Part shown: positions 3,008-8,805 of the stretch, piece by piece | How the letters are laid out: the number at the start of each line of letters is the position of its first letter | Position numbering within the stretch: the stretch's first letter is position 1 | Translations under genes and position numbers: made by a program | NCBI GenBank assembly: GCA_019637585.1 | Contig: JAHBVL010000001.1 | Location: 372,001-436,000 of the forward strand | Reading direction: 5' to 3' | From: Thermomicrobiales bacterium | GTDB lineage: Bacteria > Chloroflexota > Chloroflexia > Thermomicrobiales > UBA6265 | Length of the DNA stretch: 64,000 nt | The notes under the pieces: model-generated | What the model was told of the DNA's origin: nothing | Seen by the model: the letters and a program-made list of their open reading frames with translations, nothing else | Databases searched by the model: none

Positions 3008-4264
3008 ATGCCCCATGCTCCCGGCGTGAAACGCGCCGAAGCACACCCCACATCCCTATCCTCACGACACCGGCCTCTGCCCGGCCGGGTTACGCTGATC
3101 GTGCTCCTCGGCGGACTCAGCGCGTTCGGACCCCTTTCCCTCGATACCTACCTGCCCGGTCTGCCCGAACTTCAGGCCGACCTCGGCACCTCGACGACTC
3201 TTGCCCAGCTCACACTCAGCACCTGTCTCCTCGGTTTGGCCAGTGGCCAGATCATTGCCGGGTCGCTGAGCGACCGGTTCGGCCGGCACCGGCCCCTTCT
3301 GGCCGGACTGGCGATCTACGCCATCGCTTCGCTGGCCTGCGCAATCGCTCCTTCGATCTGGGTACTGCTCGCGGCACGCTTCATTCAGGGAGCGGCGGGT
3401 GGCGCCGGTGTGGTGATCGCGCGGGCCACGGTCCGGGACCTGCACGAAGGAACGGAAGCGGCTGTTTTCTTTTCCCGGCTGATGCTGGTCAGTGGTCTGG
3501 CGCCCATTCTGGCGCCGATCTTCGGCGGACAGCTCCTGCGGTTCACCGATTGGCGGGGCATCTTCATCGTGCTCGGTCTGATTGGCGTGATTCTCCTCGT
3601 TGCGGCGGCTCTCCTTCTGCCAGAGACATTGCCCGACGATCGCAAGCAGGTCGGGGGACTGGGCCAAACCATCTCCACGTTCGGTTCGCTGCTCTCCGAC
3701 CGGGTCTTTCTCGGTTACGCGATCACGATGGGATGCGCCGGTGCGGCGCTCTTTGGCTGGATCTCCAGCTCACCATTTGTGATCCAGGAGATTCATGGAC
3801 TCTCGGAGCAGACCTTCAGCATCATCTTCGGGACGGTCGCTGCCGGATACATCCTCTCCAGCCAGATCAACAGCCGCCTCGTCGGCAGAATCCCCCTGAC
3901 CATCCTCCTGCAGCGTGGATTGGCTGCGTTTGCGATCTGCGGCGCCATGCTCCTGGTGGCGGTGCTCCTCGATCTGCCGTTGCCCCTCTTCCTCCTGCCC
4001 CTCTACATGATGATGTGGACCATGGGATTCGTTTTCCCCAACTCGACCGCCCTGGCCCTCACCAACTACCCCCGTGCCGCCGGCAGCGCATCGGCTCTCC
4101 TGGGGCTGGCGCAGTTCACCACCGGCGCCATCGCCGCTCCGCTGGTGGGTATTGCCGGTGAGGACTCCGCGGTACCCATGGCTACGATCATCGCGTTCGC
4201 CTCAGCGTGCGCATTGCTGGCATTCACGAAGCTGTCCCGCCACGCACCCGTCGAGCACAACTGA
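3008..4264 (+). CDS. Bcr/CflA family MFS drug exporter
   Basis: The protein has 418 residues and about 12 hydrophobic segments, beginning near residue 28. The opening hydrophobic stretch contains SLDTYLPGLPEL, and loop 2-3 reads GSLSDRFGRHRPLL, which matches the MFS motif D-R-x-G-R-(R/K/H). Both are typical of the Bcr/CflA proton-driven exporters of chloramphenicol, bicyclomycin and similar compounds. The first about 27 residues are polar and unconserved in appearance, so a GTG at 3026 could be the true start. Transport substrate cannot be read from the sequence. The gene stands alone, followed by the DnaA-box region. Confidence 0.88.
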   Translation: MPHAPGVKRAEAHPTSLSSRHRPLPGRVTLIVLLGGLSAFGPLSLDTYLPGLPELQADLGTSTTLAQLTLSTCLLGLASGQIIAGSLSDRFGRHRPLLAGLAIYAIASLACAIAPSIWVLLAARFIQGAAGGAGVVIARATVRDLHEGTEAAVFFSRLMLVSGLAPILAPIFGGQLLRFTDWRGIFIVLGLIGVILLVAAALLLPETLPDDRKQVGGLGQTISTFGSLLSDRVFLGYAITMGCAGAALFGWISSSPFVIQEIHGLSEQTFSIIFGTVAAGYILSSQINSRLVGRIPLTILLQRGLAAFAICGAMLLVAVLLDLPLPLFLLPLYMMMWTMGFVFPNSTALALTNYPRAAGSASALLGLAQFTTGAIAAPLVGIAGEDSAVPMATIIAFASACALLAFTKLSRHAPVEHN

Positions 4265-4335: not shown

Positions 4336-4528
4336 GGCGCACATCCTGGTTTCGGCCGCCGCGCCTGTTGTCCGCTGGCCGTGTCTGTGGCCGCTTCGTT
4401 CGACTACGACGACGTCAACTATCAGATGTTCAGTACTGAGTAAGAGAACCGTCGTAGTCGTAGTGGTGTGGATTCCGGGGATAACGGCAATAACGCTCCA
4501 TCCGCTGCGGAAGAGCGCGTGGATGGAG

Positions 4529-4830
4529 TGTGGACAGGGAACCGGACCCTCCCCATCGATGTGGACAACCCGCGGAGTGGCGCCCGCGGCTATCCACATT
4601 CATCCACAACTGGGTATCGATCACCCACAATGCGGCGCCGATTTATCCAGTGTATGTACAGCTATTTCTCCCCAGAATGGGTCGCTTGTCCACCAAATCG
4701 AGGTGGTTATCCACCGAAATGGTGGATAAGTCGGGTGAAACAGGTGTTCCATCGCCGAAAAGAAGATGGCGTACGAACATGGAGGCTACGGAATCTTGGT
4801 TTGTCCACAAGGGGATTACCCTGTGGACAA
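4529..4830. other. Cluster of DnaA-box-like 9-mers (candidate oriC or DnaA-binding locus)
   Basis: The 4265-4997 gap has no convincing gene but holds many TT(A/G)TCCACA-like 9-mers. TTGTCCACA is exact at 4560-4568 (minus), 4801-4809 (plus) and 4822-4830 (minus). One-mismatch or near forms are at 4529-4537 (minus), 4590-4598, 4600-4608, 4686-4694, 4707-4715 and 4721-4729 (minus); weaker ones lie at 4621 and 4643. Several pairs face each other (4707/4721 and 4801/4822). TTGTCCACA is the box preferred by high-GC bacteria. No dnaA or dnaN is adjacent and no long AT-rich tract stands out, so a DnaA-titrating locus is an alternative to an origin. Confidence 0.68.
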
Positions 4831-4997
4831 GTCCGGGCACTTCTTCCATACGCAGCCCCATCGAGTGATAGACTCCATTATGGAACAGGCGTTCGTATTC
4901 CGATGCAATAGGTCGGTATTCGACCCTGGATACGCGGCGAGATCGAAGCGTGAGGAAGACCCTCGACCCGGGAACTGCGGCGACCGAACGCCAGACG

Positions 4998-6986
4998 ATG
5001 CCTGAGCAACAGAATCCCCTAGACGATAGCTTCCATCCGGATGAGCCGCTTCGCTCAGCGGAGACGATTCGCCAGATCGCCGAACAGGGCGCAGAGGAAT
5101 CGTGGTGGGACCGGTGGCGGCTGGCTCTGGCGGCTGGCGGTTGCTGGTCGTTTCTCTTCGCTGCCCTGATCGCCCGGCACCTTCTCGATGCTCCCGAAGC
5201 GGTTGTGGTTGGACTCTTCGCCGGCGCCTACATCGCCGGTGGCACCTTCGCCGCCATTGCCGCGGTCACCGATCTGCTGCGTGGGCGGGTGAATGTCGAT
5301 CTGTTGATGGTGGTGGCCGCGCTGGGAGCTGCGATCGTCGGGCACTGGTCGGAGGGCGCGGTGCTGCTCGGGCTCTTCTCTTTGTCGACAGCGCTCGAGC
5401 AGTATGCGCTGGGCCGGACCCACCGGGCGGTCCGCTCGCTGATGGACCTCGCCCCCGAGGAAGCAACCTTGCTCGATCCGTTGGCGCCCGGCGGCGAGCG
5501 CGTTGTGCCGGTCGCCGAGCTGGTTGTCGGGAATCGGGTGCTGATCCGGCCAGGGGAACGAATTGCCGTCGATGGAGCGGTGGCCACCGGTGAATCCGCC
5601 GTCGATCAGGCCGCGATCACGGGCGAATCGGTACCAGTCGACAAGCGGTCGGGGGATTCGGTGTTCGCCGGCACGATGAACACCACCGGAGCGCTGGAAG
5701 TGATCGTCACCCGGCCACGCCAGGAAAGCGCGCTGGCCAGAATCGTCCAGATCGTCGACGACGCCCGCGAGCAGAAGAGCGAAACACAGCGATTCACCGA
5801 CCGGTTCGAAGGACGCTACACGATTGCGGTGATCGTGGGATCGGTGCTGGCGTTTCTCCTGTTCTGGCAGCTGACGGATATGACCCGCGCCGACGCGTTC
5901 TACCGGGCCATCACCCTGCTCGTGGTCGCGTCACCCTGCGCGCTGGTGATTTCCACACCCGCCTCGACGTTGTCCGGATTAGCGAATGCCGCACGGAATG
6001 GCGTGCTGTTCAAGGGAAGCGGCTATCTGGAGGATCTCGGCCAGGTGCGGACGATGGTCTTCGACAAGACCGGCACCCTCACCCTGGGAAAACCGGTGGT
6101 CACCGATGTTGTCAGCTGCGACGACGCATGGACGAACGATCGTCTTCTGGCGACAGCCGCCAGCGCTGAGCGCCTTTCCGAGCATCCGCTGGCAGTAGCG
6201 ATCACCGATGAAGCGCTGCAACGAGGGCTCCCTCTCGGGGATGCTTCGGGATTCCGCGCGGTATTGGGCAAGGGACTGGTCGCTGAGGTGAATGGGGATC
6301 AGGTCGCGGTGGGCACCAGCGAGCTCATGGCGGATCTGGGAATCGACGCGGCTCGCGCCACGCAGGCGGCCGACAGATTGCGTGCGGAAGGCAAGACGGC
6401 GATGCTCGTCGCCGTTGGCAGTGGGGTTCGGGGGGTTATCGCCGTCGCCGACACGCTGCGACCCAGCGCAGGTCAGGTCATCGCCGAGCTCAAAGCGCTC
6501 GGGGTCGAGCGCACCGTGATGCTCACTGGCGATCATGGCGCTGTGGCCCGGGCTATTGGCGATCAGGTCGGTATCGACGAGATCGAGTCGGAGCTCCTTC
6601 CGGAAGAGAAGCTGGCCAGTGTGGAGCGTCTGCTGGCCAGAGGGTCGGTGGCCATGGTGGGGGATGGCGTCAATGACGCGCCGGCGCTTGCCTCCGTCAC
6701 CGTTGGTGTGGCTATGGGTGGGGCCGGATCGGATGTCGCGCTGGAGACGGCCGATGTCGTCCTGGTCGCCGACGACCTGACCAAACTGCCCTATGCGGTT
6801 GCATTGAGCCAGCGAACCCGGCGGACGATCGTCCAGAATCTGGCATTTGCGCTTCTGGTGATCGTGGTGCTCGTCACGGCGTCGCTCACCGTCGGCATCC
6901 CCCTGCCGCTCGGCGTTGTCGGTCACGAAGGGAGCACGATCGTTGTCGTGCTGAATGGGCTGCGGTTGTTGCGAACGCCGTCCTAA
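4998..6986 (+). CDS. P1B-4 type heavy-metal-translocating ATPase
   Basis: An ATP-driven efflux pump of 662 residues from the ATG at 4998; an in-frame ATG at 4950 adds only a polar stretch. Visible motifs are TGESVPVDK (actuator domain), SPC at 312-314 in a membrane helix, DKTGTLT with the phosphorylated Asp356, the HPLA motif of P1B pumps, and GDGVNDAP. Near the C-terminus, HEGST (from His643) in the last helix together with SPC is the signature of the P1B-4 (CoaT/CtpD) group. That group exports Co2+, Fe2+ or Ni2+ rather than Cu+ or Zn2+. There is no N-terminal CxxC metal-binding domain, as is usual for P1B-4. It starts right after the DnaA-box cluster. Confidence 0.92.
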   Translation: MPEQQNPLDDSFHPDEPLRSAETIRQIAEQGAEESWWDRWRLALAAGGCWSFLFAALIARHLLDAPEAVVVGLFAGAYIAGGTFAAIAAVTDLLRGRVNVDLLMVVAALGAAIVGHWSEGAVLLGLFSLSTALEQYALGRTHRAVRSLMDLAPEEATLLDPLAPGGERVVPVAELVVGNRVLIRPGERIAVDGAVATGESAVDQAAITGESVPVDKRSGDSVFAGTMNTTGALEVIVTRPRQESALARIVQIVDDAREQKSETQRFTDRFEGRYTIAVIVGSVLAFLLFWQLTDMTRADAFYRAITLLVVASPCALVISTPASTLSGLANAARNGVLFKGSGYLEDLGQVRTMVFDKTGTLTLGKPVVTDVVSCDDAWTNDRLLATAASAERLSEHPLAVAITDEALQRGLPLGDASGFRAVLGKGLVAEVNGDQVAVGTSELMADLGIDAARATQAADRLRAEGKTAMLVAVGSGVRGVIAVADTLRPSAGQVIAELKALGVERTVMLTGDHGAVARAIGDQVGIDEIESELLPEEKLASVERLLARGSVAMVGDGVNDAPALASVTVGVAMGGAGSDVALETADVVLVADDLTKLPYAVALSQRTRRTIVQNLAFALLVIVVLVTASLTVGIPLPLGVVGHEGSTIVVVLNGLRLLRTPS

Positions 6987-7061: not shown

Positions 7062-7970
7062 TTAGAACCCCGCCATGAAGGGGGACTCGATCCCGATCAG
7101 CCCCTGTTCGAATCCCTCTGGCCAGAAGTACTCCATGATCACCCGGCCGGCGCGGCCGTTGGCGACTTCGCCCTCGGTTTCGGCGGTGAAACCGCCATCC
7201 TTGCTCCCGTCGGTCATGACGCCGTAGGCGATGATCTGGCCGCCGGGGATGCTGATGACGCCCATGTCGGCGCGGACGCCGGTGACCCCGCCGGTCTTGT
7301 TGGCGGTCCAGAAGTGTTGCGTTTCACCGAGCTCGGCGCTGTAGACATTCGAGCCAAGAAAGCGGGGAAACTGGGCTGTGTAGTGCTGCCGCTTCAGGAT
7401 GGCCAGCATCCCCGCCGACGCCTCCGAAGAGACCGCTTCTCCCGCCCCGATCATTCCCGCCAGCCGCATCAGGTCGAAGGGAGTTGACGTGGCCAGCCAT
7501 TGAGGATCGGTCACTTTCAGCGTGAAGTTGATCTTGCGATAGAGGGTCGTGCCGTCCAGCCCGATCGCCTTCATCGAGGCATTGACCGAACCGGGTCCGC
7601 CGACCAGATCGATCAGCATATTGGTGGCGGTGTTGTCGCTGACGATGATCATCAGCATCGCCAGGTCGTGAACGGTCGGTTGGAGTCCCGGCATGATGTC
7701 GCGCAGCACGCCCGACCCTTCCACGATGTCGCTGGTCTTGAGGTCGACGCGGTCATCCAGCCGGTGCGTTCCTTCGTCGATCTGGCGATAGAGTTCGTAG
7801 AGAATGGCGGTTTTGATGGTGCTGGCGGTGGGAAAGACCTCTTCGTGATCGAGGAGGAATTCCTCGCCCGTCGACAGGTTGCGAGCGGCGATGCCCATGC
7901 GTCCGGAGAATTGTGACCGGATGTGTTGCAGGCGTTCGTTGGTGCGCTCTCGCGTGGGAGCGGGCATCAT
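7062..7970 (-). CDS. Class A beta-lactamase-fold serine hydrolase
   Basis: This 302-residue protein shows the serine-hydrolase triad of motifs: S50-T-I-K53, S111-D-N113 and K225-T-G227. The order and spacing match class A beta-lactamases and related D,D-peptidases. The omega-loop ExxLN motif, with the deacylating Glu166 of true class A enzymes, is not found between SDN and KTG. No signal peptide is visible, so the protein looks cytoplasmic. A GGAC-type ribosome site (aaagga) precedes the paired ATGs. It more likely cleaves an ester or amide other than penicillins, but the substrate is unknown. Confidence 0.8.
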   Translation of the reverse strand: MMPAPTRERTNERLQHIRSQFSGRMGIAARNLSTGEEFLLDHEEVFPTASTIKTAILYELYRQIDEGTHRLDDRVDLKTSDIVEGSGVLRDIMPGLQPTVHDLAMLMIIVSDNTATNMLIDLVGGPGSVNASMKAIGLDGTTLYRKINFTLKVTDPQWLATSTPFDLMRLAGMIGAGEAVSSEASAGMLAILKRQHYTAQFPRFLGSNVYSAELGETQHFWTANKTGGVTGVRADMGVISIPGGQIIAYGVMTDGSKDGGFTAETEGEVANGRAGRVIMEYFWPEGFEQGLIGIESPFMAGF

Positions 7971-8101: not shown

Positions 8102-8392
8102 ATGACCACCGTCACAATCGAACCCGAAAGCAAACTCGCGGAAGCGCTCAGGCAGGCGGCCAGAACCGGCGATGTCGTGATCGTTCGCGCCGGCGATGCT
8201 TCCTACACGATGAATGTCGAACCAGAGCTCACTCCCAGGGACACGCCGGAAACCTTGGCAGCACAAGGCGAGGCCTTCCGCTCCGCAGTCGATGCTGCTT
8301 TCGGCACCTGGAATGATGACTACGCCGAGGAATTCAAAGCGTATGTTCGTGAGCGCCGAAAGTCAGGCAGCCGACCGTCGGTAGAGCTTTGA
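8102..8392 (+). CDS. Putative antitoxin of a VapBC-like pair
   Basis: A 96-residue acidic-to-basic small protein that I do not recognise by family. Its stop codon overlaps the TTG start of the PIN-domain gene in the 4-base TTGA, the arrangement typical of antitoxin-toxin operons where the antitoxin comes first. The C-terminal third is rich in charged residues (EEFKAYVRERRKS), as expected for a segment that wraps a toxin. The antitoxin role is inferred from gene order only. Confidence 0.7.
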   Translation: MTTVTIEPESKLAEALRQAARTGDVVIVRAGDASYTMNVEPELTPRDTPETLAAQGEAFRSAVDAAFGTWNDDYAEEFKAYVRERRKSGSRPSVEL

Positions 8393-8805
8393 GCGAGTAT
8401 CTGGTCGACACTGACATAATCATCGAAATTCTCCGGGGCGACCTCCATGCGCGCCGGGTGCTGAACGGTTTGTCAGTGAGGAACGACAACCTCGCAGTCT
8501 CTGTGATCACTGTTGGAGAACTCTACGAGGGTGTGTTCTACGGCCGAGACTCCCAAGACGCGCTTGCGAGGCTCGACCACCTGTTGGAATCGTTCTCTGA
8601 AATCACTGAGGTAACTCGCCGTCTGGTAGAGCGGTTCGGAATCGTAAGGGGCGGCCTGTCTCGCCAGATTCGCAACCAGGTGGGTGATCTCGACTTGCTC
8701 ATCGCCGCGACCGCGCTCGAGCACGATCGCATCCTGCTCACCGGGAACGTGCGTGACTTCCAGCATGTGCCAGAGTTGCAGATTGCCAACTTCCGGGAGA
8801 TGTGA
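8389..8805 (+). CDS. PIN-domain ribonuclease toxin (VapC-like)
   Basis: A 138-residue protein beginning EYLVDTDIIIEILRGD, which places the first catalytic Asp of the PIN fold near residue 7. Further acidic residues fall at GELYEGV and QVGDLDLLIAATALEH, the canonical E and D-x-D-x-L-I-A-A positions. VapC toxins cleave tRNA or rRNA when the antitoxin is degraded. It uses a TTG start that overlaps the upstream gene stop by 4 bases, implying coupled translation. Confidence 0.88.
   Translation: MSEYLVDTDIIIEILRGDLHARRVLNGLSVRNDNLAVSVITVGELYEGVFYGRDSQDALARLDHLLESFSEITEVTRRLVERFGIVRGGLSRQIRNQVGDLDLLIAATALEHDRILLTGNVRDFQHVPELQIANFREM

Follow-up and report, generated by a model that had tools for sequence, protein, structure and literature searches.

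The oriC of Escherichia coli lies away from dnaA, has its box array next to an AT-rich unwinding element with 13-mer DUE repeats, and is subject to GATC-based control. At the oriC of Bacillus subtilis, the basal unwinding system (BUS; DnaA-box 6/7) is built from tandem abutting boxes, a 4-nt G-rich gap, at least three NAN trios with the consensus 3'-GAT-5' (TAG), and an AT-rich tract. Such systems can be searched for by the rule that a box lies no more than 16 bp from at least three NAN DnaA-trios, often with the boxes as a tandem pair and with a GC-rich gap of 4 bp (PMC8287927). Within the order Thermomicrobiales, the origin of T. roseum has been placed by skew next to dnaX, with dnaA, dnaN and others dispersed, and the accessible part of that report gives the skew position only, without boxes or an unwinding element (PMC2615216). 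Among the papers searched, we found none that defines an oriC for Thermomicrobia.

Here we describe an intergenic region which, judged on its sequence, is very probably the chromosomal replication origin (oriC) of an uncultured Thermomicrobiales bacterium. It lies in the window (the whole 64-kb stretch of DNA that was analysed, G000:C1:372001-436000, from a 3.94 Mb assembly of 33 contigs which is 96.6% complete), with its box cluster at 376.5 kb on contig C1. The region is similar to the E. coli oriC in combining a dnaA-remote array with an AT-rich element, and differs from it in the flanking genes. The order of its parts is that of the B. subtilis BUS, whereas its trios are TAC/GAC and the site is not adjacent to dnaA. 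The cluster appears to be an order-wide case of the dnaA-remote oriC, an already known kind. Its type seems ordinary and the support for it is good; its location is unusual, and its delimitation is new for the order. It offers a precise oriC candidate for an order with dispersed replication genes, in which the earlier placement (T. roseum) was only rough, by GC skew. The retention of the BUS layout despite a distant dnaA supports the BUS as a core of bacterial origins, and the cluster provides an anchor for growth-rate estimates (peak-to-trough) from metagenomes.

A dense array of DnaA boxes remote from dnaA

The region is flanked on one side by the gene for a Bcr/CflA-type transporter (3008-4264) and on the other by that for a heavy-metal P1B-type ATPase, whose reading frame starts 120 bp past the end of the cluster. 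The features assigned here are the following (window coordinates).

4414-4449, no strand: AT-rich tract, candidate DNA unwinding element (DUE), at the AT peak in aligned relatives
4451-4462, minus: DnaA-trio-like repeats reading TAC GAC TAC GAC, from the tandem-box and trio scan
4463-4466, no strand: G-rich 4-nt spacer (gtgg) from trios to boxes; a GGGG-type spacer is kept in relatives
4467-4475, minus: trio-proximal BUS box GAATCCACA, abutting the next box; tandem pair conserved
4476-4484, minus: trio-distal BUS box TTATCCCCG; tandem pair conserved
4529-4537, minus: DnaA box with one mismatch (CTGTCCACA), from the pattern scan
4560-4568, minus: DnaA box TTGTCCACA, exact TTRTCCACM
4590-4598, plus: DnaA box with one mismatch (CTATCCACA), from the pattern scan
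4600-4608, plus: DnaA box with one mismatch (TCATCCACA), from the pattern scan
4666-4674, plus: weak box TTCTCCCCA, first of a conserved head-to-tail triple (spacing 20, 21), from the layout in relatives
4686-4694, plus: DnaA box TTGTCCACC, middle of the triple, exact TTRTCCACM, kept in relatives
4707-4715, plus: DnaA box TTATCCACC, third of the triple, exact TTRTCCACM, kept in relatives
4721-4729, minus: DnaA box TTATCCACC, exact TTRTCCACM, facing the third box as an inverted pair
4801-4809, plus: DnaA box TTGTCCACA, exact TTRTCCACM, left arm of a 30-bp inverted repeat
4822-4830, minus: DnaA box TTGTCCACA, exact TTRTCCACM, right arm of the 30-bp inverted repeat
4950-6986, plus: flanking heavy-metal P1B-type ATPase gene (NCBIfam TIGR01525, 598 bits)

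The initial annotation had reported at least nine DnaA-box-like 9-mers in about 300 bp, three of them exact TTGTCCACA, in both orientations and with facing pairs, and each of these points is borne out. Exact TTRTCCACM occurs at six sites within 271 bp (4560-4830), to which three one-mismatch sites are added from 4529 onwards, and the three copies of TTGTCCACA begin at 4560, 4801 and 4822. The facing pairs are 4801/4822, at the ends of the 30-bp inverted repeat, and 4707/4721, which has 9-nt arms with 5 nt between them. The fold z-score of the region as a single strand is -4.9, a strong value that is probably due to the inverted boxes; an Rfam search of the region for an RNA element returned no match.

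The density is also as far above background as had been claimed, and the array is of the kind expected for a DnaA-dependent chromosomal oriC. The 64-kb window contains eight exact TTRTCCACM sites (two of them outside the cluster) against 0.95 expected, and none of 100 shuffles gave eight. Genome-wide there are 61 such sites, six in the cluster and 55 scattered, and the Poisson estimate for the cluster is ~4e-18 per 271-bp window. The cluster is the sole box cluster in the 3.94 Mb genome. On contig C1 the next-densest box stretches are part of a CRISPR array, and the box-like run at C1:267.8-268.8 kb was for this reason not counted as a second box cluster. The CRISPR array itself (G000:C1:267300-269100, outside the window) has a period of ~61 bp and a repeat ending in CCCCCACGYRYGTGGGGACAAC, with two repeat variants meeting inside it, and looks like type I-E.

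As initially noted, no dnaA or dnaN is near the cluster: dnaA is 122 kb away on the same contig (C1:253.8-255.3 kb). This is the single dnaA of the genome, and its product carries DnaA_N, AAA+ and Bac_DnaA_C domains with the box-binding domain intact. No box cluster was found around it. A second DnaA-family match (C12:458.8 kb) was judged from sequence to be a DnaC-like loader adjoining dnaB. The position of parB, on another contig here and far from the cluster in the relatives G030 and G038, gives no support for the origin.

A BUS-like module to the left of the array

The functional unit extends over ~4414-4830 and is larger than the 4529-4830 first annotated, where the cluster does lie, but which missed the left part of the element (~4414-4484). 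In this left part the AT-rich tract, the trios and the two abutting boxes (4467-4484) make up a BUS-like module of the B. subtilis type. Read on the minus strand, the order in the window is TTATCCCCG-GAATCCACA-CCAC-TAC GAC TAC GAC-GG, followed by the AT-rich tract. Four trios thus stand 4 nt from a tandem box pair, in agreement with the published rule and with the 4-bp gap of the BUS (PMC8287927), and strand opening at this site is a prediction. When 800 kb of contig C1 was scanned for a tandem box, a spacer of 3-7 nt and at least four NAN trios, with a total box mismatch of no more than 3, the window module was the sole match. Four to five NAN trios are also present in G004, G011, G022, G028 and G041; the third trio is broken in many relatives, so strict trios are not universal.

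The AT content at 4414-4449 is 0.57. Alignment of 22 clusters from relatives on the middle box of the triple gave a mean AT that rises from ~0.34 to 0.54 at -290 to -250 from that box, so that an AT-rich element with a putative role in melting is conserved beside the boxes. The conserved block adjoining this peak reads roughly CCGTNNNNGTNGTAGGGG-NTGKGGANNGTGKGGATAAC. In nearly all of 29 aligned genomes the module (AT-rich tract, trios and abutting boxes) is found at -187 to -255 from the middle box, the offset being -219 to -255 in most, with -209 for G005 and -187 for G031; for G027 this alignment yielded no convincing module match. An 11-nt perfect inverted repeat (CGACTACGACG) at 4401-4411 and 4450-4460 flanks the AT-rich tract and places trio-like sequence on both sides of it, an arrangement that is not evident by eye in relatives.

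In the mechanism we propose, the B. subtilis model (PMC8287927) is the source from which each protein step is inferred. DnaA, whose gene is 122 kb away, would load via domain IV onto the box array, where the head-to-tail triple with its spacing of about two helical turns may act as nucleation site, and also onto the two abutting boxes at 4467-4484. ATP-DnaA would extend from the abutting boxes onto the DnaA-trios of one strand, and the adjacent AT-rich tract (4414-4449) would melt, allowing the helicase to be loaded there.

Conservation across Thermomicrobiales

The relatives found by genome search all fall within one order. Most of this order shares the site, and the arrangement of BUS-like module plus array recurs in at least 25 Thermomicrobiales genomes. 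Their clusters were reached through ATPase orthologues first (in other genera of the family) and then through a pattern in which two boxes are spaced by 20-22 nt. Searching the relatives at the DNA level with the entire region returned short fragments only, since what origins preserve is their boxes and spacing and not their sequence; the pattern searches worked. Most family members have three head-to-tail boxes at 20 and 21 nt, typically TTGTCCACA-N11-TTATCCACM-N12-TTATCCACA, and the first box, which is usually TTGTCCACA in the family, is the weak TTCTCCCCA here (4666). G026, G030 and G038 have few boxes, some of them degenerate.

The usual neighbours in relatives are a queuosine-salvage gene (Pfam Q_salvage) and/or a metal P-type ATPase gene. 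The cluster lies beside an orthologue of one or both in G018, G019, G026, G030, G035, G038, G041 and G001, and further in G045, G046, G047, G005, G009, G012, G022 and G024. The ATPase orthologue adjoins it in at least eight other genomes, and the queuosine-salvage gene is on its other side in many relatives. Since G018, G019, G026 and G030 carry both flanks, the one-flank cases are tied together as one orthologous site. Thirty dnaA loci were read and none of them has a box cluster.

GC skew in relatives and on the window's own contig

Skew was analysed in two relatives with near-complete chromosomes, G030 and G038 (the latter in two contigs, the larger of 2,741,033 bases), using sampled 20-kb tiles, script-called genes, third-position GC skew and a fit with one origin and one terminus. 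In G030 the skew origin is at 1.08-1.10 Mb, compared with 1.101 Mb for the cluster and 1.835 Mb for dnaA, and 71 of 100 bootstraps fall into the 1.08-1.14 Mb bin. The corresponding positions in G038 are 2.59-2.62 Mb, 2.594 Mb and 0.001 Mb (the start of the record); the fit is broad, with 59 of 100 bootstraps in the 2.58-2.64 Mb bin and 29 at 0-0.24 Mb. The bootstrap peak is the cluster's own bin in both genomes and is sharper in G030. At the resolution of the sampled tiles, the cluster is thus at the skew switch in both of these long chromosomes, 733 kb (G030) and 148 kb (G038) from dnaA. In G030 and G026, which are apparent congeners of T. roseum, dnaX is 12-13 kb from the cluster, and the published T. 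roseum origin is next to dnaX (PMC2615216), whereas G038 and the window's genome have dnaX at other positions.

The window's own contig conflicts with this picture. Its best single skew switch is at 237-240 kb, 14 kb from dnaA and 136 kb from the cluster (R2 of 0.110 at 240 kb versus ~0.053 at 375 kb), and only 1 of 300 bootstraps fell at 360-380 kb. Taken segment by segment, the skew marks the plus strand as lagging at 60-240 kb, as strongly leading at 240-265 kb, as near neutral at 265-376 kb and as leading beyond. The initial annotation had proposed that a skew minimum elsewhere, accompanied by a dnaA-linked box cluster, would speak against an origin here; the minimum exists, near dnaA, but has no box cluster with it, and the scans of C1 found neither box cluster nor BUS near 240 kb. 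For this reason, and given that two relatives have the orthologous site at their skew switch, we keep the assignment of the origin to the cluster.

Skew is a marker of the origin and not a requirement for it, and is moved by rearrangement. Our guess is that rearrangement accounts for the mismatch: if the 240-376 kb block had been inverted or transferred, the skew would be reconciled with the placement of ndk, a gene that lies close to the origin in G026, G035 and G038 and adjoins dnaA here. Skew alone fits both such a block rearrangement and an origin at 240 kb, and comparing gene order with G038 yielded only 21 pairs, a number that does not suffice to test for symmetry. It is unlikely that the origin itself moved recently relative to strand asymmetry, being either freshly displaced with the skew still adjusting or joined by a second, box-poor initiation site beside dnaA.

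Alternative readings of the cluster

The initial annotation had left open whether the cluster is an origin or a DnaA reservoir. The origin is strongly favoured, because the genome has no second such cluster, because relatives across the order share this one, with orthologues on the skew switch in two of them, and because the AT-rich tract, trios and abutting boxes are coupled to it at a near-fixed distance. A DnaA-titrating or -reactivating locus (datA- or DARS-like), tuning initiation elsewhere near dnaA, would accommodate the own-contig skew switch near dnaA, 136 kb from the cluster, and box clusters by themselves are no proof of an origin. Such a locus has no need, however, of an AT-rich tract with DnaA-trios held at that distance. 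It is also at odds with the dnaA loci read, here and in relatives, which have no box cluster nearby, and with G030 and G038, in which the orthologous cluster coincides with the skew switch. We therefore regard titration as quite improbable.

The 120 bp between the end of the cluster and the P1B-type ATPase frame would suit a regulatory region for that gene, with the repeats as operators for a metal or cell-cycle regulator. Yet the repeats have the DnaA-box consensus, and the cluster remains intact in genomes whose ATPase gene is at a distance of 1-4 kb (G018, G005, G022) or 59 kb (G038) or was undetected in the flank retrieved (G001, G010, G041), which makes this highly improbable. We find it scarcely credible that MraZ-type operator repeats, or another GTGGR repeat family, have been mistaken for DnaA boxes: the mraZ promoter in the order does have TTATCCCCAC-like repeats that fit the same pattern, but these are GTGGG with a different internal sequence, whereas the cluster in the window consists mostly of GTGGAYAA, with copies on both strands, has the BUS module and has no adjoining mraZ.

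The mraZ promoter repeats of the order are of the TTRTCCCCAC type and end in an exact DnaA box (G038:C1:2221291-2221341 and matching sites, with mraZ identity confirmed by Pfam in G038 only); they may form an operator of the dcw cluster to which both MraZ and DnaA bind. The tandem-box pair at 2.221 Mb in G038 is this promoter and not a second origin, and the syntenic pair in G031:C89 was taken as an mraZ promoter likewise.

Other genes in the window

Two further loci lie beyond the ATPase gene. At 7062-7970 a class A beta-lactamase-family protein is encoded (Pfam Beta-lactamase2, 185 bits; under the NCBIfam class A cut-off), and at 8102-8805 two adjacent small genes, for 96 aa and then a PIN-like 138 aa, resemble by eye a VapBC-type toxin-antitoxin pair.
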